Part shown: positions 16,690 through 54,617 of the stretch, in pieces
Numbering within the stretch: position 1 is the stretch's first letter
Layout: each line of letters opens with the position of its first letter
From: Gordius sp. MW1
Lineage: Eukaryota; Nematomorpha; Gordioida; Gordea; Gordiidae
Assembly (NCBI GenBank): GCA_964036665.1
Contig: OZ038529.1
Location: 3,968,001-4,032,000, forward strand
Length of the DNA: 64,000 nucleotides
Direction: 5' to 3'
Program-made: the position numbers and the translations under genes
Notes under the pieces: generated by a model
Told to the model about the DNA's origin: nothing
Database searches by the model: none
What the model saw: only the letters and a program-made list of their open reading frames with translations

Positions 16690-17260
16690 TATGTCTTGTT
16701 ACTACCATTGATAATAAGACTTTTTGGCCGTCCGCTGGCTGCTGACCAATGGAAAAAAATGACCATTGGCCAAAATGTGTATCGAAATTATTTTTTCGTT
16801 TTTTTTGACTATTATGATTGTTCCTATTACTACCATTGCTATTGTGACTTTTTGGCCGTCCGTTGGCTGCTGACCAATGGAAAAAAATGACCATTGGCCA
16901 AAATGTGATTCGAAAATTTTTTTTCGTTTTTTTTTTGACTTTTATGAATTTATATCCACTTTTACCGTGTCGTGGCTGCTGAACATTGGAAAAAAATGAC
17001 CATTGGCCAAATTGTGAATCGAAATTTTTTTCCGTTTTTTTTGACTCTTATGATTGTTCCTGTTAATACCATTGATAATATGACTTTTTGGCCGTCCGCT
17101 GGCTGCTGACCAATGAAAAAAAAGGCCCTTGGCCAAAGTGAGCATCAAAAATTTTTTTTCGTTTTTTTGGCTATCATTGATTTATAGAGTATCTGTTGGT
17201 ACTGACCAATGAAAAAAAATGACCATTGGCCAAATTTACATAATTTAAAAATTTATTATA
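16690..17260. repeat. CCAAT-hairpin tandem repeat block 1
   Basis: About five divergent copies (spacing about 105-135 bp) of GGCTGCTGACCAATGG and AAATGACCATTGGCC, where CCAATGG and CCATTGG form a short hairpin, linked by a T-rich stretch and a TTAATACCATTGATAATA-type segment. Open frames here are artefacts of the repeat. Confidence 0.8.
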
Positions 17261-22179: not shown

Positions 22180-22960
22180 CTACTGACCAATGAAAAAAAT
22201 GACCATTGGCCATAATGTGATGCGAAATATTTTTTTTTCGTTTATGAATTGGTTAACATTGATAATTACCCTATGCCCTCCCCTACAAGGGCCTATGCCT
22301 ATACTGATACGGGTCCCTGTGCCCCTACCAAACCCTATGCCTTTACTTATGTGGGTTCGAATTCCGGAGAGGGTAAAAACTTTATTTATTTTTTAAATTA
22401 AATTAATACATTGTTCTTGTTAATACCCTTAATAATATGACTTTTTAACCGTGCCCTGACTACTGAACAATGGAAAAAAATGACCATTGGCCAAATTGTG
22501 AATCGAAATTTTTTTTCCGTTTTTTTTGGGTCTTATGATTGTTCCTGTTAATACCATTGATAATATGACTTTTTGGCAGTCCGCTGGCTGCTGACCAATG
22601 GAAAAAAATGACCATTGGCAAAAGTGAGCATCAAAAATTTTTTTTCGTTTTTTTTGGCTATCAATGACTTATAGAATATCTGTTGGTACTGACCAATGAA
22701 AAAAAATGACCATTGGCCAAATTGTGAATCGAAATTTTTTTTCCGTTTTTTTTGACTCTTATGATTGTTTCTGTTAACACCATTAAATATGACTTTTTGG
22801 CCGTCCGCTGGCTGCTGACCAATGGAAAAAAATGACCATTGGCCAAAGTGAGCATTAAAAATTTTTTCCCCGTTTTTATGGCTATTATTGACTTATAGAG
22901 TATCTGTTGGTACTGACCAATGGAAAAAAATGACCATTGGCCAAATTTTATATATAACCT
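22180..22960. repeat. CCAAT-hairpin and B-box repeat block 3
   Basis: CCAAT-hairpin units near 22185, 22455, 22595, 22690, 22815 and 22915, and one B-box unit (GGGTTCGAATTCC at about 22352). This is the continuation of the block the hAT-like element interrupts. Confidence 0.75.
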
Positions 22961-30570: not shown

Positions 30571-32770
30571 TCATTGCAAGGCCATAGGATATACAACATT
30601 TTTGGTTTTACCCTCAGGCGCGAAAATAAATAGGTTGCTAGGTGTGTCTACACGGGAGCAGGCTACATATAGTTGGCCATGTGAAAAGCATGGATTTTCT
30701 AGATTTAAACCAACAACGGTTAATGATTGACCCTGGGCTTTATTTATTGTCATTGCGAATGCTAGGCGTACAGGAAACTGTACGCGCTTGAATTCGACGG
30801 GCACATCGGTGGGGATTATGGGGATGCGTGGGATCATCACGTCCTCGCCTTTATACGTTCCGCTGATTATAGTAGCCGCAATTACGTTTGGACGCAGTTG
30901 TTTTACGGCAAGTCTGGTGCCATTACACAACCTCGGGGGGTGTAGGTTACGCAGGAGTATTATAGGGCAACCAGGTTTTAAGGTTAATTTATGTGGTGGG
31001 ACACCCGAAGGTGTTAACGAATTCAAAAATTCAATTGGATAATTTACAATTTGATCGGTTTCTATAACCGTATCAATAGAGCTGTAAGTAAAAGGATCAC
31101 CTGGAATGTGTACTTGAATACGATCATTCATACGAGTGACGGCTGCATTTGTTGGCGCTAATATTGCGCGTTCTCGGAGCCATGTGGGATTGGTGTAGTG
31201 CGTTGCAATGTAGGGGAAAACCATAGTTTCAACCGCCTCAGGCGATGGTAGTAGGTGACAAAAGGTTGTTGGAAAGGTGGTTTCATTTGGAGACGGGGTT
31301 AAAGGAAAGGAACCATTCCCCAAAGCTAGGAGTTGTTGTGCAAATGGGGACGTATCCGGGAGTAAATGCACGCGCATGTTCGTAGTAAACGTGAGGATCG
31401 TAAACTTACACCAAAGATGTGAAGCCTTCAGGCAGGCATCCAGCTCATCAGCCGGTGTTGATCTTGGGATAACAGGTAATGTTTGTCGAAAATCACCGGC
31501 TAGCAACAATAAGGTCCCCCCATAGGGAAGTCAATTTTCCGCAAATCTCTGAGAGTACGATCTAGTGCTTCGAGCGCTTTTTTATGCGCCATCGTACATT
31601 CATCCCAAATTATGATTGAGCATGTCTTAAGGACTGTCCCAATTCCCGAGTTCCGACTGATATTACAGATAGGTTTCAATCTGATGCAGATTTAGGGGGA
31701 GCTGGAAAGTAGAATGCGCCGTGCGGCCTCCATCGAGTAACGTCGCCGCTATACCCGATGATGTGACGGCTAGGGCTAGCTCGTCATTGGCGCGAAATTT
31801 TGCCAATAAAAGATTAAGGAGAAAAGTTTTACCGGTGCCGCCGGGAGCATCAAGGAAAAGCAGACCGCCATTAACGGTTGAGGCGTACTGGAGTACGGTG
31901 TCGTACGCGGTTTTCTGGTCGACGGTCAAAATAAGTTCGCGTTCCTGTATAATGCTGCGCTGATGGTTAACATCGTATTGCAGTTTGAGCCATACGTCTT
32001 TCGGTTGTACATCATTGCTGGTGCGGAGGGGTGTAGGTAAACCAAATTGGCATAGCATTTTATTGCTTATGGACATACATTGGTCCTCCAATAATATAAG
32101 AGCACGGTTGAAGATGTCATCGGAATAGGAAATATCTAATGCCGGATTTGCTCTCCGAATGCGCAAAAGAACGTCCTCGCTGAGGCTTTCCTTGTGCCGG
32201 TGCCACAGGTCTGATGGATTTGACGGGGCGCAGGTGGTCAAAATGAGCGCAAATAAATTACGGAGTTGGTAGGGGAGACATATGAGCGACGCCTCCTCTA
32301 AAGTCGTATCCCAATGCTGATCATTTTCCAGCAGCTGAAGTTCAAGACAGGCTTGTCTATACGTGGCGCACACGGTGCCTGAGATCGTTTTCAGAGCTTG
32401 AAATGATGTCGGGCCTCGGACATTGTGAAGCGGCATGCGCAAATAAAAACATTCGGCCTGATTGGGATGGATTGTATACATACGTCCCAAAGCATCAGCC
32501 ACATGGATGTCCGGAAAGCCTGCAACCACAGGTTTCTGTTTTCTCCGTTGAAACACCTTCCGTGCCGCGTTCCAAGTGTAATACGTCGGATGATGGTATA
32601 GCAGGGTTTGCGCGAAAGCGTCCGTTTGACACAGCTGGAAAAAGGCTGTCAATGTGGTATTGGGGGGGGGGTGTTCCACTTTGTGAACGGCGGTCGCCGG
32701 AGTGAAGAAGACGCGCTGGCCATTTTCTAAGTGAACCGCGAGATGTACTACGGGTGGGTAACGTTCGTGA
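30571..32770 (-). pseudogene. Helitron helicase (PIF1-like) domain
   Basis: On the minus strand, 32679-31663 has LGRMYTIHPNQAECFYLRMP, then Walker A (LDAPGGTGKTFLLNLLLAKF). The Walker B region (IIIWDECTMAHKKALEALD) lies about 31610-31570 in another frame. 31509-30571 has LLAGDFRQTLPVIPR and MTINKAQGQSLTVVGL with YVACSRV. All main SF1B motifs are present, but frameshifts occur near 32770, 31660 and 31525 (a G run). It forms the C-terminal part of a RepHel protein. Confidence 0.9.
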
Positions 32771-35259
32771 ATGGGAAATGCGAGGATTCGCTAAACAGCC
32801 TCATTGCTGCTGAGCTGATATACCGACCCGTTTGAAATTGGGTAATTTCATCCGGGTTAGAAAGCGCTAGGCCAAAAACTGCCATATTGCTGCCTTTGTT
32901 GACATATTTGCATATGTACTTGATGGACTTTACGGAATTGCAGTACTCTACGTTTATATGAGCCGTGAACATTTTTGCGAGTAGGGGAGAGTAAGGGACT
33001 ATCCAGCTGTTGTCAATTTAGACTGGGGAATTTTTTACCTGTATTGTGCAGGTGTGACCTCCCTCGCCGGGTGCACGGCGTCTATATGGTGGGTAGCCGT
33101 CGACGCCAGATTTCGTTTCTTGAGTCAGGCGTTTCGGATAATGTTTAGAGCATTTACCTTCTTTCATGCACGGGGACGCGTTATTTATACCGCCGCAAGG
33201 GCGTGAATCATATGCCGAGTAACAGTGGTAAACAAAACGGGATCGGTTTGCGGATCGGGTAGTTCTGCACAAATAATGTTATCTATTTGCGACGGGTAAA
33301 TGGTGTCTCGGAGCCAAATTAGAATATGCGCATGAGGTAGCCCTCTTTTCTGCCATTCATTCGAGTACATCCAACAGGTAGTTTGCCCGAATATATGAGA
33401 TTTAGCTATAAGATCAATAAGGCAACAAAGTTTTAGGCGGAAAACACAGGCGGTCAGATCGTGACGATGCGATGGTTTCTGGCCCGCCAACAGTAAATCC
33501 GTAATTTCGGGCCAGGCTGGATTGCAGGTGAAAGTTATAAACAGAGAAGGGCAGCCGAATTTACGTACATATGACATCGCGTCCTGCGTATATTCATGCA
33601 TGTGTCGGGGACTTCCCGTATACGTAGCAGGAAGGATGACCATTCGACAAACATCGGACCTCTTACCATCCTTCGCAATAGCATCGCGCAGGTGAATATA
33701 TTGCTCGGCCCGAAGTAATCCCTGATTAAGGCGGATGTAAAGGAGGCGTTCGCTCTCGATCTTGGCATACATGTCGACAACATATTGATGAAATAGTTGC
33801 CGGCACCGCAAGATATGGTTAGGTTGGTTTGCGCGTATCATTAGCCGATATGCGTAAAAATTCATCGCCGATACCTAGTAGACAAATACACGGATCATAT
33901 AGGGGCACAAAGAATGATACGCTTACCTTTTTTTTGTGTAGGAGCTCGCGTAGCGGAATCTAGGCGCATTAGATTTAGGTGGAAGCCATCCTCTCCTTGG
34001 CAAAACAATATGGGGTATTGCAGGGCATCGTATGATCTGTGCGTGGCATCGATGTTTTTGAGGGTTTCATCTCTTCGGCTTATAATAATATCGCGACGCT
34101 CAAATTCGCTTCCAACCATGACGATCGCTACTTCGTCTATCGTAGGCGCGTTAAAGCGTCTTTCATGTTCACCAGGTGGCGTCCTATCAGCCTTGATAAC
34201 GACCTTGTAATCGTCAGTGGGCATGTGCTCCAACGCGAGTTTGAACAGGTTAACCAAATGATTTTTAGTGTGGAATAACTGCTGCAACTCGGTGACTATA
34301 TCACGGCGGATAACGGGATGCATCCTGCAACGTTGATCAGTTTCAGCGTCGCCCATGAAATATATTTGAAGAAAGCCGTGGGCAGCATCAGGTACCGGGA
34401 GAAGGGACCCGATTAGATGGTAAATTTGCCCTTGTACTCTAAACGTGGGCATGAAACCACCATCATTAATAATGCGCGTTGCTCCAAACGATGTCATTTG
34501 AGAGCAAGCGTTGTATTGGCGAATGTGTTCGAGAAAGTGTTTGGACACAGGAGTAGTACCAGAAACGTAACTTAAAAGCGGTTCCGGTGGCTCTTCCAGA
34601 GGTGGTAAGTTGACCTTTCCATACAAACAACATATTCCACCATGTTCTGTTCGGAAACGTAGAGCCTGACAATGTACACACAGTGTATTCATTCTGCCAA
34701 TTGTGACGGAGGGATAGAGTCTGTAATCATACGCCGAATCATACGCGAAAGCGGCTAAGGTTAAATCGGCTCCCGAGCTATTTCGTGTAAGCCTGGCTCG
34801 GTTACTAAGGTCGGCCAGCCGGGCATTGCGCTTTTCGCCAGTTTCAGCTGTTCTCGACGTGGAGGCTCGGTCCCGAAGGTCAGCCAGCCGGGCGTTGCGC
34901 TTTCCGCCAGTTTCAGCTGCTCTCGACGTGTAGGCTCGGTTCCTAAGTGCGGCAAGCCGGGCGTTGCGCTTTTCGCCAGTTTCAGCTGCTCTCGACGTGT
35001 AGGCTCGGTTCCTAAGTGCGGCAAGCCGGGCGTTGCGCTTTTCGCCAGTTTCAGCTGTTCTCGACGTGGAGGCTCAATTCCTAAGTGCGGCAAGCCGGGC
35101 GTTGCGCTTTTCGCCAGTTTCAGCTGTTCTCGACGTGGAGGCTCGGTTCCTAGGTGCAAGCCGGGCGTTGCGCTTTTCATCAGTTTCAGCTGCTCTGGTC
35201 TTCTTTGCGGTTTTTGTAGTACGTAGAATTTTTGTTAAAGTTTTTTTCCGCCGGGGCAT
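32748..35259 (-). pseudogene. Helitron Rep domain with repetitive N-terminus and a probable intron
   Basis: The start MPRRKKTLTKIL is at 35259. Then come 23-aa repeats, a zinc-finger-like segment (MNTLCVHCQALRFRTEHG at 34692), MNFYAYRLMIRANQPNHILR (33828), FGCPSLFITFTCNPAWPE, the HUH box in GLPHAHILIWL and the nucleophile segment SIKYICKYVNKG (32915-32880). Breaks: a CGA-to-TGA nonsense in repeat 2 (about 35075), a frame jump in an A8 run at a probable 52-nt intron (33926-33875), a frameshift near 33200, and TAA at 33018-33020. Not functional. Confidence 0.9.
34790..35180 (-). repeat. 69-bp in-frame coding repeats of the Helitron N-terminus
   Basis: Six units at 66-69-bp spacing (CCGGGCGTTGCGCTTTT at about 34819, 34888, 34957, 35026, 35095 and 35161). 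On the minus strand each encodes about AETGEKRNARLAALRNRA plus a short linker (23 codons), a basic helix repeat seen in many Helitron proteins. The alternative frame rich in SATPGLPHLGTEPP is a shadow. Confidence 0.9.
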
Positions 35260-43839: not shown

Positions 43840-44045
43840 CGTGCTATAGCTCTAGCGCATTTAAGTGCTATCGGCTATAGCTTTAGCGCCTCAAACCCTC
43901 CATCTCCTAATGGCTTATAGCACCTAAAACCTCCCATCTCCCATAGCTTTAGTGCCTCAAACCTCCCATCTCCTATTATAGCACTTAAAGTGACTATGTG
44001 CTAGTAAGCGGCGAATCCAGTGGAACGGTTCGAATCTCTATCCGT
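43840..44045. repeat. CTATAGC/TCTCC short repeats and possible MULE end
   Basis: Three to four degenerate units of GCTATAGCTTTAGCGCCTCA and CCTCCCATCTCC, then CGGTTCGAATCTCTATCCG at 44021. The last word is inverted at 50111-50131 (ATAGAGATTCGAACGG), beyond the MULE gene. Confidence 0.5.
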
Positions 44046-45854
44046 TCGAATGGTTTAACAAAGTAGACAATAAATCTAAATTGTATGTAAAAATTTAGTT
44101 TATATTAAATAACTATAAAAAGGTTTTATAATAACAATGTATTGATATCAAAGAATTGCCTGTCAAGACTATAGATATGAGCACTTTATTATAAATAAAC
44201 AACAATATATTAGTTTGTTATATATAAATATATGATTTTATTTTTTATTATATACGATCATGTATATAGTTTATATCAAAAAAACTGATATTTATGCGAT
44301 TGTATATAATGTATTACCTTGTTTTAACACTTTTTTCTTTGACAGTAATTTAATTGTACTTAAATTTTATAAATAATTAGTAGTAGTATTAAGGATAAAA
44401 TATTGTAAATTAAATAATATATAGTTTTATATCAACAAATTAAAATGATTGTTTTAATTAATATCATTTTGCCTATAACATGTGAACAAAATGCTTAATA
44501 TTGTGGATACTCTTATATTATTTGTATAAGTATAGCAATGGCTTATCTAAATTCGCACAAACCTATTACTATCTTAATCTTATATATTTTTGTAATTATA
44601 TGTGTAGTTTTTATATAATATTTTATAATTTTATAATGTTCTATATTAGCACAAGATCTGGAGAAGGAAAAAATGGCAGTTTTATAATAATATATTCTTT
44701 ATGAAAAGGGTTTGTAAGGAAACACCCATTATAAGATATAGATGATTCATAGATATTGAGAAATGTAAGTGCTTAAACGAGAAGGAACGTGACATGGTGT
44801 CTTTGAATACTCTTTTGTCAGATACCCAATACTTTTAAATAATGGAAAGGCACAAATTTCAAGAGTGCATTATAAAAAATTGTTGTTTGTTAAGAAATAA
44901 TGTTACTTTAACATTGTAAATAAACTTTTTGTTTGCATTTTATATGTATATAGCATACATTGATATTGTTCTCAAAGTTTTTAGTAATTACGACTTTTTG
45001 ACTCTTATATTATATGTTGCATGAAATTTGAAACACATGATAAAATATAAATGCTTCCTCTCATATATAACAATCATATCCATGTCAAGTCAAAACATCC
45101 AAATTTCTTCTAACTCTAAAAATTTATTTATATGTCAATTTTATTCTCAGAGGATATACCCAAAAATTATCAAATAATTTAGATGATATAAGTATAGTAG
45201 TTAAATTATAAAGCTCCGACTTGGACATAAACACATAGCTAGCATATGTGCTCGGACGCATAAGCTTTGTCATCAAGAGGGGTAATATGCTTAAGTGGTT
45301 AAGTTGTAACAGCAAATACAAGCTCAAGCAGTAGGAATATGAGTTTGTTAACAATTTTAAATAAAAGTAATTTTGTACGAGCAATTGCTGAGAGCAAGTT
45401 GCTCATACATTTTGCTCAAGGAATGTGTTAATTAATTATGTGACATATCGCCTATCCCCTCTCTCTCATAGCATGAAACTCTGACACTGTATCCTACTCG
45501 TGATTAAAGTAGGATACACAGTGCTTGTGAGGGGGCAGAGCTCACAGTGAGCAATGCTCACTGGAGCAAATCACCATCACTAGATATAAGAAGATAAATG
45601 GTATAAGTTATGGTATAAAATAAATTACAATTATCATATACTTTAAATTAATGAAGAGTTAATTAATAATTATAATTGTAAAACAACTCAATTTAATTTC
45701 TTTTTCACTCTTAAAATTCCCCATCTTTCATTCAAACGATTTTATGTATAATATTTTGATAAAATCACACAAACACCCCTACAAAGGGTTCTCAACTATA
45801 CTAGCTATTTAGAGCGTCCCTTATATTTTTACACAATAGAAAAAATTTTTGTAG
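44046..45854. other. AT-rich intergenic DNA
   Basis: No gene seen. A 13-bp stem (ACTGTATCCTACT with AGTAGGATACACAGT) lies at 45487-45525. Confidence 0.5.
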
Positions 45855-45990
45855 GAGTTTTAACGATGACATTACTGCCCGCAAACGGGCAAAAGTTCCC
45901 TCCATTCTTAAACTGTCAGATCCCTATCTCGAAGGGCAGATGCGTCCTGACGATTCGTCACGTGTCCCATGGGACAGGTGATAATTTTGG
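45855..45990 (+). other. GC-rich exon-like island
   Basis: Preceded by a pyrimidine-rich AG (TTTTTGTAG) and ending at a perfect GTAAGT. Two frames are open. One reads DDITARKRAKVPSILKLSDP, YLEGQMRPDDSSRVPWDR and stops at a TGA about 11 nt before the GTAAGT. The other starts with ATG 45866 (MTLLPANGQKF) and runs into the donor. Composition is unlike its surroundings, but no partner exon was found, so gene status is open. Confidence 0.3.
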
Positions 45991-46231
45991 GTAAGTAAAA
46001 TGGCAGGCTTTTGAAATGACTTTATATATTCCTTAATTTTCACACTCGTCGACCTCGCGATGTTTCATATTTATGTATGACATTTTCAGGGAATATAATT
46101 TTATTATAGATTAAGGAAACAAAATGCAAAGTAAACTTTAAATAGATACTAACATTTGTATTTAACCCCTTTAGCAATTATTTACACTACCACGTGTGAT
46201 TTCTATAGTATGTTACTTTTCAACAAAGATT

Positions 46232-49200
46232 TTATTCCGAGTCACTAGTAAAATCACTAGTGTCTCGTTCACGCGAAATAGTATCAACATCATGCGAATT
46301 ATTATCAAAATGCGAGTTCGAAGAAAAATTAACAGGATTACAAACGCGCGAAGTACCATTATATGATACAAGTTTAGCTATATTATCTACATAGTTAAAA
46401 ATATTGTAATTACGCGATGTATCCATATATAAATCGCGTAAAATATTAATACGCGTATTTTTATCGCGTACCTTTTTTTTTACAGAATATAATACTTGGC
46501 CTTGATCAATTTGAGAAATATTGATCTCGGCCTTAGTGTTCATTTGAATTAAAAACGCGAGGCAAGTGTATATGTCAGGATGGGATACTCCAATAAGAGA
46601 TTTAAGGGAGTTATGATATCCCTCGAGGTGATTGTTGGTCCTAGGACCAACAGCCTCGTATCTCTGCCACATTTCATAGGGAAATGTGGCAGAGTGGGTC
46701 AACCACGTGTTAAATACATAAGAAAAAAAAGAACATAATTTTGCATGCTGGGAGACAATAGGGTCATCCCAACAGGCTCGAAAAACGGTTAAAACGTCCT
46801 CATATCGCAAGAAAGAGAAGGCGGTCACCCTTCGGACCATTTTTCGAATGGTCATATCACCCAAGTATTCCTTTTTGAATTCGAGTTTTTCAACTCGTCT
46901 CACCAAGGCTTTCGAAAAGTGGAACAAGCAACCTGAAATATAACAAAAATTAGCAATTAAACTGAGAACGACGGCTAATTTTTACCTTTAATAACGGCGT
47001 TCGGGAAACACCTTTGAAGGGCACTCTTTGCAGAGCGTTCAAAGTCTATTTGTATATATGTAGGGTTTAATTCCAAATTAAACCCCAAACAAATATCTTT
47101 AAGTTTCTCAAATATTCGGCAATATGTTAAAGCCTTCCTATCAGGCATAAAAATATAAACTATAGGGATCATATGATCCTTATAGTAGGCATGAATTGTG
47201 TAAAGCTAAAATATCATATATATTAATGTATAAATGTAATTACTTGATAAAAGATACATGGACATACTTTAAAGGTACCATCCATGTAAATGGAGGTTAC
47301 CTCGCACAAGACTCTTAGCAGGGAAGGGGTCCCAAAGATCAACAAATTATTATCATCGTTCCATAAAAGGAACCTTTCATTCTTAGGTGTTAGCGTTTGG
47401 GCATCAGTCAGGTTAATTTGACTTCTGCGCGCAGGTATAGGCAACCTATTAACAATGGTCCTTTTCATTGTAGACCTCACGGCTTTTAAAGATGGCATAC
47501 CCATGGGAAATTCCGCAAGGTCTGGCACATCAACAAGTCGTGAGCTAATGGTTTCATGGTATAATTTGCTGATTTTTACACCTGGATTTAAGGTAACTGC
47601 GTTTTTCAATTCCCTTCTTGTCACCAGACTCTCGTATTCCTCCCTTGGAGGTTCATGGTTATGTTGACGTTTGACAACAATTTGACCATCAGCCTCCAAA
47701 GCTGTTGCGGGGCAGGAGGAGTCCCTACATTTATAATAAGTTTTCTGCGATACCTTCTTATTTCTAACGTAGAGGTATGAGGAGTAATATAGTAATACTC
47801 CTCCATTTGATTCTATAAATTCCGGGGAAGATGCTAAATTAATTTTAAAAAATTATAAAAAAAAATACATACCTTCAGTCAATTCCATTTGATTTGTAAC
47901 ATCAACTAATAGCATAGCTTCTTCAAGTGAAATATTACCTAGAAATAAATAATTTAGAACATTGTAAAATTACTGTATGTAAAAATGTTAAAGTAATTAA
48001 ATTCAATGCTAATATACTTGTGGGAGCAAATGTTTGGACTGGGAATTGTATAGGCATATGAGGCATTATTGCACAAGATCTCACAGAATAAATTTGACCT
48101 AAAATGTATAAATTAATTCTATGCTAAAATACTTGTGGGAGCAAATGTTTGGACTGGGGCTCGGATAGGCATATGAGGCATTATTGCACAAGATCTCACA
48201 GAATAAATTTGACCTAAAATGTATAAATAAATTCTATGCTAAAATACTTGTGGGAGCAAATGTTTGGACTGGGAATTGTATAGGCATATGAGGCATTATT
48301 GCAGAAGATCTCACAGAATAAATTTGACCTAAAATGTATAAATTAATTCTATGCTAAAATACTTGTGGGAGCAAATGTTTGGACTGGGGCTCGGATAGGC
48401 ATATGAGGCATTATTGCAGAAGATCTCACAGAATAAATTTGACCTAAAATGTATAAATAAATTCTATGCTAAAATACTTGTGGGAGCAAATGTTTGGACT
48501 GGGAATTGTATAGGCATATGAGGCATTATTGCAGAAGATCTCACAGAATAAATTTGACCTAAAATGTATAAATAAATTCTATGCTAAAATACTTGTGGGA
48601 GCAAATGTTTGGACTGGGAATTGTATAGGCATATGAGGCATTATTGCACAAGATCTCACAGAATAAATTTGACCTAAAATGTATAAATAAATTCTATGCT
48701 AAAATACTTGTGGGAGCAAATGTTTGGACTGGGGATTGTATAGGCATATGAGGCATTATTGCACAAGATCTCACAGAATAAATTTGACCTAAAATGTATA
48801 AATAAATTCTATGCTAAAATACTTGTGGGAGCAAATGTTTGGACTGGGAATTGTATAGGCATATGAGGCATTATTGCACAAGATCTCACAGAATAAATTT
48901 GACCTAAAATGTATAAATAAATTCTATGCTAAAATACTTGTGGGAGCAAATGTTTGGACTGGGAATTGTATAGGCATATGAGGCATTATTGCACAAGATC
49001 TCACAGAATAAATTTGACCTAAAATGTATAAATTAATTCTATGCTAAAATACTTGTGGGAGCAAATGTTTGGACTGGGGCTCGGATAGGCATATGAGGCA
49101 TTATTGCACAAGATCTCACAGAATAAATTTGACCTAAAATGTATAAATTAATTCTATGCTAAAATACTTGTGGGAGCAAATGTTTGGACTGGGAATTGTA

Positions 49201-49913
49201 TCGGCAAATGAGGCATTATTGCAGAAGATCTCACAGAATAAATTTGACCTAAAATGTACAAATTAATTCTATGCTAAAATACTTGTGGGAGCAAATGTTT
49301 GGACTGGGGCTCGGATAGGCATATGAGGCATTATTGCAGAAGATCTCACAGAATAAATTTGACCTAAAATGTATAAATAAATTCTATGCTAAAATACTTG
49401 TGGGAGCAAATGTTTGGACTGGGAATTGTATAGGCATATGAGGCATTATTGCACAAGATCTCACAGAATAAATTTGACCTAAAATGTATAAATAAATTCT
49501 ATGCTAAAATACTTGTGGGAGCAAATGTTTGGACTGGGAATTGTATAGGCATATGAGGCATTATTGCACAAGATCTCACAGAATAAATTTGACCTAAAAT
49601 GTATAAATAAATTCTATGCTAAAATACTTGTGGGAGCAAATGTTTGGACTGGGAATTGTATCGGCAAATGAGGCATTATTGCAGAAGATCTCACAGAATA
49701 AATTTGACCTAAAATGTATAAATAAATTCTATGCTAAAATACTTGTGGGAGCAAATGTTTGGACTGGGGATTGTATAGGCATATGAGGCATTATTGCAGA
49801 AGATCTCATAGAATAAATTTGACCTAAAATGTATAAATAAATTCAATGCTATATACATTATTATTACCAATCGATTGCCGTTTTGATGTTTGGGGAATTG
49901 CAGAAAATTGCAT
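46232..49913 (-). CDS. MULE-type transposase gene, FLYWCH finger, 16-fold exon-array N-terminus
   Basis: The exon model (minus) is: 49913-49868 (starts MQFSAIPQTSKRQSI), sixteen 81-nt exons between 49823 and 48018, 47938-47873, 47833-47244, 47205-46986 and 46932-46232 (stop). All phases match (1 throughout the array, then 1, 0, 1) and give 973 codons with no internal stop. The 47833 exon has a FLYWCH zinc finger (LYYSSYLYVRNKK, YYKC, SSCPA, HNH). The catalytic domain has YMDGTFKVC (Asp), YIQIDFERSAKSALQ (Asp), GCLFHF (C-x2-H) and NNHLEGYHNSLKS (Glu), the full Mutator-like DDE set. The C-terminus is Ser/Asp-rich. All key residues are intact, so it is either an active element or a domesticated gene. 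A GTAAGT donor at about 50031 may end a 5' UTR exon. The array part rests on phase and splice signals alone. Confidence 0.82.
48016..49855 (-). repeat. 16 x 115-bp exon-intron tandem array
   Basis: Sixteen units of exactly 115 bp with no indels (ACTTGTGGGAGCAAATGTTT at 48016 and every 115 bp to 49741). On the minus strand each is an 81-nt exon (from GTCAAATTTATT to GCTCCCACAA) plus a 34-nt intron (GTATTTTAGC ... ACATTTTAG). In phase 1 each exon is open and encodes QIYSVRSCAIMPHMP, IQFPVQTFAPT and a split Ser codon. Phases 0 and 2 are not used. Variants are mostly in codons for IQF (IRA, IQS), HMP or HLP, and Cys or Ser; A and B types alternate at one end. Confidence 0.9.
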
Positions 49914-50640
49914 ATTGCTAAAATCCTATCAAATCGGAAAGATAGATTAGCCGTTTAACGTAAAAATATAAAATAGGAACACTTTAGCTATAATATGATT
50001 GGTTGCGCAAGGTTTATGTTATGACACTTACCGGTAGTGTTATGACCATAATGCTAGTCTTATGACATCCCTCTGAGCAAATATTCGCGTGAATTTGATT
50101 GGTCTTCGAATCGATAGAGATTCGAACGGCTGTGCAGAAGCGGTAAGCGGCATATGGTTGCTATGTGCTATAGCCTGAGATCCTTAAAAACGCTATTCCC
50201 AATCACTATGATCGCCAGTCTATAATATGATTAGTCATTCCTACCATCCTATTTGAAGCGATTGGTTATGGTTTTATACCTCTATGTCTATCATCTTTCC
50301 TCTACAAACATTATTTTTTTTTGTAAAAATTCGTTCCCTCATTTGAATTTTGTTTCTATAACATGATACTCTATGGCCTGAATGACAAAATTTCTCTTAG
50401 AAAAACTATCAATTCAAGCCTAACATTTGTTAATAAAAATTTTACAACCCTTAAATTAGACTTATTTTTAAATCGCTGACTAATTTATTATTGAATACTG
50501 CGCAATTTATTACAAGGCGGATCTAGTGGTACTAATCAAAAGGCTCCGGTAATCGGTGGGGACCTAAAAGAGAACGAGAATGCAGGAGAATTAAATTCAT
50601 AAAACTTCTAGATTTAGAATGCCATGTGCATGTATTTTCT
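49914..50640. other. Region upstream of the MULE gene
   Basis: Holds a possible 5' UTR exon end (minus-strand donor ACCGGTAAGTG at about 50031) and an ATAGAGATTCGAACGG word (about 50113) inverted at 44021. No other gene seen. Confidence 0.4.
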
Positions 50641-51458: not shown

Positions 51459-51530
51459 GCCGTGATCGTATAGTGGTGAGTACATTGCGTTGTGGCCGCA
51501 TTAACCCAGGTTCGAATCCTGGTCACGGCA
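51459..51530 (+). tRNA. tRNA-His (GTG)
   Basis: 72-nt cloverleaf: acceptor stem GCCGTGA with TCACGGC, D arm TATAGTGGTGAGTA, anticodon loop TTGTGGC, T arm CCAGG-TTCGAAT-CCTGG, discriminator A. A U-U mismatch closes the anticodon stem. No intron. A T5 pol III terminator follows at about 51533. Confidence 0.95.
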
Positions 51531-54544: not shown

Positions 54545-54617
54545 GCCGAAATAGCTCAGTTGGGAGAGCGTTAGACTGAAGATCTAAAGGTCCCTGGTTC
54601 AATCCCGGGTTTCGGCA
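54545..54617 (+). tRNA. tRNA-Phe (GAA)
   Basis: 73-nt cloverleaf: acceptor GCCGAAA with TTTCGGC, D arm TAGCTCAGTTGGGAGAGC, anticodon stem-loop TTAGA-CTGAAGA-TCTAA, T arm CCTGG-TTCAATC-CCGGG, A73. A T-rich terminator follows. Confidence 0.97.

Follow-up and report, generated by a model that had tools for sequence, protein, structure and literature searches.

Among MULE transposons of the Phantom group, Tm1-A of root-knot nematodes encodes a transposase of 496 aa in 7 exons and Muta1 of Aedes one of 504 aa in 2 exons (PMC3169594, PMC5225508). As described in the available parts of these papers, both resemble the element reported here in combining FLYWCH with a MULE DDE transposase (PMC3169594, PMC5225508), and Muta1 further resembles it in its 8-9-bp TSD and its many non-autonomous derivatives (PMC5225508). 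Both differ in that their tandem repeats, with units of about 12-15 bp, are located within the terminal repeats, and an exon array is not mentioned in those parts (PMC3169594, PMC5225508). Rehavkus and the aphid Phantom elements are likewise MULE-like elements with a tandem array, but in these the array is placed ahead of the 3' TIR or beyond the transposase ORF, and Rehavkus carries a PHD finger (PMC6446971). The words intron, exon and tandem are absent from the main text of that source in the form available (PMC6446971). Across the accessible parts of four papers, MULE tandem repeats are placed in TIRs, after the ORF or on the C-terminal side, and no exon array is mentioned (PMC6446971, PMC3169594, PMC5225508, PMC13359780). 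For schistosomes, PMC10526429 lists among its references a 1988 title concerning exons repeated in tandem that encode 81-base repeats.

We analyzed a window of 64,000 nucleotides from Gordius sp. MW1 (contig OZ038529.1, positions 3,968,001 to 4,032,000). It contains a complete Phantom-type MULE transposon, the features of which are as follows (positions within the window):

44004..44012, no strand: left copy of the TSD GTAAGCGGC (from sequence)
44013..50142, minus strand: complete MULE (Phantom-type) transposon, 6,130 bp, with ends common to derivative copies
44028..44050, plus strand: left arm of an imperfect TIR, partner of 50105-50127, 91%
46232..46932, minus strand: last exon, with the E of the triad, to the TAA at 46232 (alignment with relatives)
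46986..47205, minus strand: DDE exon, with the second D (alignment with relatives)
47244..47833, minus strand: FLYWCH zinc finger and start of the MULE DDE domain, with the first D (Pfam; alignment with relatives)
47873..47938, minus strand: 66-nt exon with the helix-like motif EEAMLLVDVTNQM
48018..49823, minus strand: array of 16 symmetric 81-nt exons (phase 1-1) with fifteen 34-nt introns, encoding 16 x 27 aa
49868..49913, minus strand: exon 1 with the ATG, 46 nt, ending in phase 1
50105..50127, minus strand: right arm of the imperfect TIR, pairing with 44028-44050
50143..50151, no strand: right copy of the TSD GTAAGCGGC (from sequence)

The 9-bp TSD is identical on both sides. The TIRs are short and imperfect, with a 23-bp core that is 91% identical and outermost 15 bases that are unmatched. 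When ten derivatives were compared with the window element, the right end was shared by all ten and the left end by eight; those with both ends present (L012, L014, L016, L019, L020, L022, L023 and L024) have TSDs of 8-9 bp by eye. As in Phantom-type elements, we found a MULE DDE domain with D, D and E, a FLYWCH finger and a TSD within 8-10 bp. Assignment to Rehavkus is contradicted by the domains, of which only MULE and FLYWCH exceeded the Pfam cut-offs in the 495-aa part scanned, and by the position of the array on the 5' side of the gene. Among the matches listed, the window copy is the sole fully open FLYWCH-DDE stretch of its own subfamily: the closest relatives (96% and 94%) carry one TAA each, an exon is broken in an inverted pair at C1:3.79 Mb, and the gene of L013 is interrupted. 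The derivatives L010-L012, L014, L016, L017 and L019-L025 keep 3-5 units and have one internal breakpoint in common, within a unit. They form an amplified non-autonomous family of the window element.

Elsewhere in the window, ORFs at 30571-34692 are helicase-like (Helitron-like by eye), and another coding minisatellite adjoins them at 34761-35196, with 69-bp repeats (23 aa) in an open frame. A tandem repeat family with a period of about 128 bp lies at 16699-17168 and 22410-22947, and at 3206-3813 of L026. Genes for tRNA-His (GTG; 51459-51530) and tRNA-Phe (GAA; 54545-54617) lie outside the element, past its right end.

On the minus strand, the ATG exon, the 16 units, the 66-nt exon and the FLYWCH and DDE exons join into one open frame of 972 aa, 44% of which consists of 27-aa repeats. 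The original prediction of sixteen same-phase 81-nt exons in 115-bp units, continuous in frame with an ATG exon, the 66-nt exon and an intact FLYWCH-DDE transposase, was thereby borne out. The period is exactly 115 bp (TRF: 16.2 copies, 96% matches), and each of the 16 exons measures 81 nt, is preceded by AG and followed by GT, and joins its neighbors without a stop. The repeat, as read from the sequence and its splice signals, is one exon plus one intron, homogenized within the gene; the intron after unit 16 has 79 nt, as against 34 nt for the fifteen array introns. Both domains pass their Pfam cut-offs (MULE, PF10551, 41.3 bits against 27.6; FLYWCH, PF04500, 37.4 bits against 23.6), and the FLYWCH finger sits after the 432-aa array, not at the protein start. 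The end of the FLYWCH-DDE exon was placed at 47244 by aligning the window gene with relatives, and D, D and E are invariant between the window gene and three distant relatives. We take these residues to be the catalytic triad, by their likeness to those of Muta1 (PMC5225508, as far as available). Stretches similar to the helix motif of the 66-nt exon adjoin the array in many paralogues by eye, though not in the L032 family.

When the 211.8-Mb genome was searched with the protein, 151 matches were counted, with identity down to 34% among the matches listed. Upstream stretches were taken for 19 paralogues across the identity range and for 8 further sister-family copies. Comparable repeats are present in 15 of the 19 paralogue stretches, mostly of other units and with periods of 94-144 bp; an array that is a one-off of the window gene is thus refuted. 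Arrays of at least five unit exons occur in 13 of the 19 (L028-L039 and L043), about two units are found in L040 and L044, and L045, outside the scored set, has apparently alternating 54- and 42-nt exons by eye. Three of the 19 gave no scoreable exon array: L041 has a 128-bp array that is not readable as exons, L042 has no array in the 1.8 kb examined, and the best splice pair of the array in L046 is not 3n. The 19 include sets of sister copies (L028/L029, L032/L033/L036, L034/L040 and L038/L039), and the scored loci represent 12 families including the window and L013. Unit exons and introns measure 63+31, 60+37, 60+38, 63+38, 78+32, 81+34, 84+34, 78+43, 78+47 and 105+39 nt, with a second array of 48+36 in L038. 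In the L032 family a 27-nt (9-codon) sub-repeat inside the exon yields exons of 69, 78, 105 and 132 nt, all of them 3n. Arrays recur down to about 42% transposase identity, and homology between the units of different families is clear only for the window and L013, with weak hints for L031, most pairs being at shuffle level. The exon array, on this comparison of paralogues, is the architecture of a clade and not of one gene. Searches for longer homologues elsewhere returned none at E <= 0.001 (7,992 candidates scored), and no relative was found in viral contigs.

Neighboring genes of the clade often stand head to head: among the best 55 of the 151 matches, 11 of 11 neighboring pairs less than 20 kb apart are arranged minus-then-plus (for example C8:35.09-35.10 Mb, L009), and at least two tail-to-tail pairs occur among the lower-ranked matches.

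The units could in principle be a non-coding minisatellite, either subterminal repeats, of the kind known from several Phantom/Foldback MULEs, or an intronic array. In that case translation would start no earlier than the 66-nt exon, and the open frame would be accidental. The Tm1 and Muta MULEs do have tandem repeats in their ends, according to the accessible parts of the papers (PMC3169594, PMC5225508). A protein collection held eight outside relatives, and the three examined begin directly at FLYWCH, where gene prediction may miss upstream exons; the deletion derivatives hold their 3-5 units without the gene, and the array of L041 resists an exon reading. Terminal repeats were rejected as an explanation: the window array lies at one side of the element only, about 0.3-2.1 kb from one end, which speaks against the minisatellite reading as well.

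The length and frame of the units also oppose it. The 26 scored loci, one of which lacks an array, gave 252 exon intervals; 246 have a 3n length and 248 contain no stop, although the intervals are not independent because ten loci are sister copies of one family. Two units are truly frame-breaking, one of 49 nt in L039 and one of 77 nt, with a stop, in L035; both loci have an open transposase. Two non-3n exons of 71 nt in L035 apparently reflect misplaced donors, and the non-3n intervals of 184 nt (L039) and 208 nt (L043) are stretches outside unit arrays; these two and one of 177 nt (L038) lie between or before arrays and are not units. Array introns differ by single bases (34/35, 43/44, 47/48), and a few donors are not GT. 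A splice matrix was derived from 19 non-array introns, of which 13 came from clade genes (by eye) and 6 from host myosin. For 12 of the 14 units in the set, which did not include L041 and L045, its best GT-AG pair enclosed an exon of 3n length (binomial P 8e-5). L031 and L046 failed and L037 barely passed, and the second-best pair of L031 is 3n. An earlier matrix of 13 introns, one with a wrong boundary, had given 10 of 14 (P 0.004), against one third in shuffled units.

Composition separates the frames. In the coding frame, the 305 codons of 12 pooled unit consensuses, which are not all independent because the window and L013 units are related, include no stop, no Lys and 3 Asp/Glu. The other two frames contain 17 and 16 stops, with K/D/E counts of 27 and 34. 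Shuffles free of stops had a mean of 27.5 K/D/E (sd 4.3, minimum 14), and 0 of 2,000 were as low as the coding frame. On this one-frame charge depletion, with the joined frame of 972 aa, we rejected an accidental open frame. In L032 and L033 no intron separates the last unit from the FLYWCH exon, and in L031 none separates it from the conserved helix, the frame being kept in each case; L036 likewise has none before its FLYWCH exon, with the FLYWCH frame then shifted. A candidate ATG lies in the same frame within a 5'-truncated unit in L031, L032/L033 and L037, and in L031 the frame upstream of it is open. Taken across families, these tests make a chance origin of the array pattern very unlikely, and we consider the non-coding minisatellite improbable. 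The proposal that the units are coding, symmetric exons was supported in the paralogue families by 3n exons with few exceptions, by units that run on in frame into the FLYWCH exon or the helix (two families) and by candidate start codons (three families).

Further comparisons bear on the exon reading to differing degrees. Copies whose transposase is not intact (19 arrays) have 14 units out of 88 that are defective in frame, stop or splice site, excluding 14 last units cut at the deletion breakpoint. Open copies have 15 defective units of 237 over all 23 scored loci (P 0.014 against 14/88) and 4 of 197 over the 17 loci first chosen (P 3e-5), the broken and open sets being drawn from different families; the window alone, with 0 of 16, gives P 0.12. 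L013 has nine sound units, yet its gene is interrupted. The excess of defective units in broken copies may thus lend the exon reading weak backing. Short introns are spliced by the host: six read in its myosin gene measure 39-79 nt, some of them having shorter alternatives, and the 13 non-array introns of the clade measure 35-53 nt. Array introns of 31-34 nt lie at or below these ranges. The muscle myosin gene itself (L055, C1:21514300-21519600) has duplicated alternative exons, seen as three and two hits on the same part of the profile, a structure that by itself would suggest an arthropod. No spliced retrocopies were found for the two junctions searched. A dN/dS test among units had been proposed as a check on the reading; pN/pS ranged from 0.17 to 3.67, with 1.08 in the window, and thus gave no sign of general purifying selection on unit sequence.

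These ratios bear on the alternative that the arrays are coding yet functionless, slippage expanding the 5' part of the gene and only harmless, frame-keeping expansions surviving as tolerated ballast. Values of about 1 in several arrays would be expected of such ballast, as would the shuffle-level likeness of units between most families, the sister copy L047 with no array in the 2.3 kb examined and the array of L041 if it is purely non-coding. Against this alternative, the 13 of 19 stretches with at least five units all have an exon in each unit, though purely intronic arrays would be equally tolerable; mostly unrelated units share a bias against Lys and acidic residues, and arrays recur down to the low transposase identities given above. 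On balance, tolerated ballast is a serious but lesser possibility.

Another rival reading starts from intron retention. A retained 34-nt intron in the window meets an in-frame TAG after four codons ('SILA*'), which confirms on translation a stop that had been predicted. Many tiny introns could thus render most transcripts non-productive, so that more units would mean less transposase and each copy would regulate itself. The 39-nt intron of L031, however, is stop-free and in frame, so its retention would leave translation running, and we regard such a splicing rheostat as quite doubtful.

The variability of the arrays is best seen in a sister family of 11 copies, whose transposase is 80% identical to that of the window over 189 aa. 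Its 3' flank (1,981 bp) is full-length at 100% after rounding in 9 copies (bits 3564-3573) and partial in 2; its 5' flank is at 100% in all 11, over at least 793 bp in ten (one of them the query itself) and over 633 bp in one. Between these flanks, ten copies hold arrays of 4, 4, 6, 8, 8, 9, 14, 15, 34 and 43 units by span. The eleventh, L047, has no array in the 2.3 kb examined, with 419 bp next to the 5' flank outside that stretch. Each of the eight fully read arrays has a different unit string; the 14 exon types of the family combine a handful of sites without synonymous differences. The two longest were read for 18 and 17 units, the lengths of 34 and 43 coming from span; they form one palindromic pair, in which the copies directly adjoin each other (C8:35.09 Mb), their read parts have long runs in common, and an assembly error is possible there. 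The sister copies are nearly identical almost everywhere outside the array, which thus evolves far more quickly than the remainder of the element. Between these copies, units can be seen to have been gained and lost without a frame shift, as anticipated from the window alone.

Weighing these results, we think it likely that the exon array provides a frame-safe, hypervariable, low-complexity N-terminal domain that is re-dealt as the element is copied. Because each unit consists of a single whole intron and a single 3n exon, entire units can be gained, lost or reshuffled without disturbing the frame, wherever the break falls. From their sequence, the units would be spliced as exons and translated. 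The predicted product is a low-charge domain (almost Arg-only), Lys-free, acid-poor, rich in P, S, I, Q, T and N and probably disordered. Its predicted length ranges from about 100 to over 1,100 aa, with 16 x 27 in the window and up to 43 x 27 in the sister family. Length and unit order would probably shift by slippage or unequal exchange during copying of the element or repair of excision gaps, a likely moment of change because copies that are otherwise almost identical already differ in the array. Selection would act on frame and composition and not on the precise sequence, as expected of an assembly segment or a linker. The array of two families seemingly lies between two FLYWCH-like fingers. 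An extra FLYWCH-like stretch is seen upstream of the array in L034, L040 and L038 (by eye, frame unchecked), and the array there may accordingly be a linker between two fingers.

A bolder version of the hypervariable domain is rather unlikely, in our estimate. The array would be a built-in shuffling device, giving the N-terminus a new length and unit order at nearly every copying event, and the resulting swarm of transposase variants would carry a Lys-free, condensate-like tail that could resist ubiquitin-dependent removal or alter multimer size or competition between copies.

The original prediction knew of no transposase built in this way, and in the literature searched, mainly papers free of subscription, we found no description of a transposase family built on symmetric exons arrayed in tandem. 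A natural experiment on repeat-protein genes is provided by the ten dispersed, near-identical copies, whose arrays range from 4 to 43 units, and sister families with other units largely follow the same frame and composition rule. The arrays make it possible to test how exon-intron arrays expand, whether introns help to keep coding repeats stable and whether a disordered N-terminus has a tuning effect on a DDE transposase. Of the host genes compared, the schistosome micro-exon genes are similar in having short exons that are mostly multiples of three, but their introns are of 0.1-5 kb and they encode host secreted proteins, according to the parts of the paper available (PMC10526429). Spider silk genes share the exon-intron structure: in the accessible account of MaSp2 (Argiope) and Flag, near-identical short introns separate similar exons that are homogenized within genes and divergent between them (PMC9779670). 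Homogenized exon-intron arrays are thus already known, and what appears new, within the literature searched, is their occurrence in a transposase. MaSp2 and Flag are host structural genes and immobile (PMC9779670), whereas here the number of units varies between near-identical, dispersed copies.
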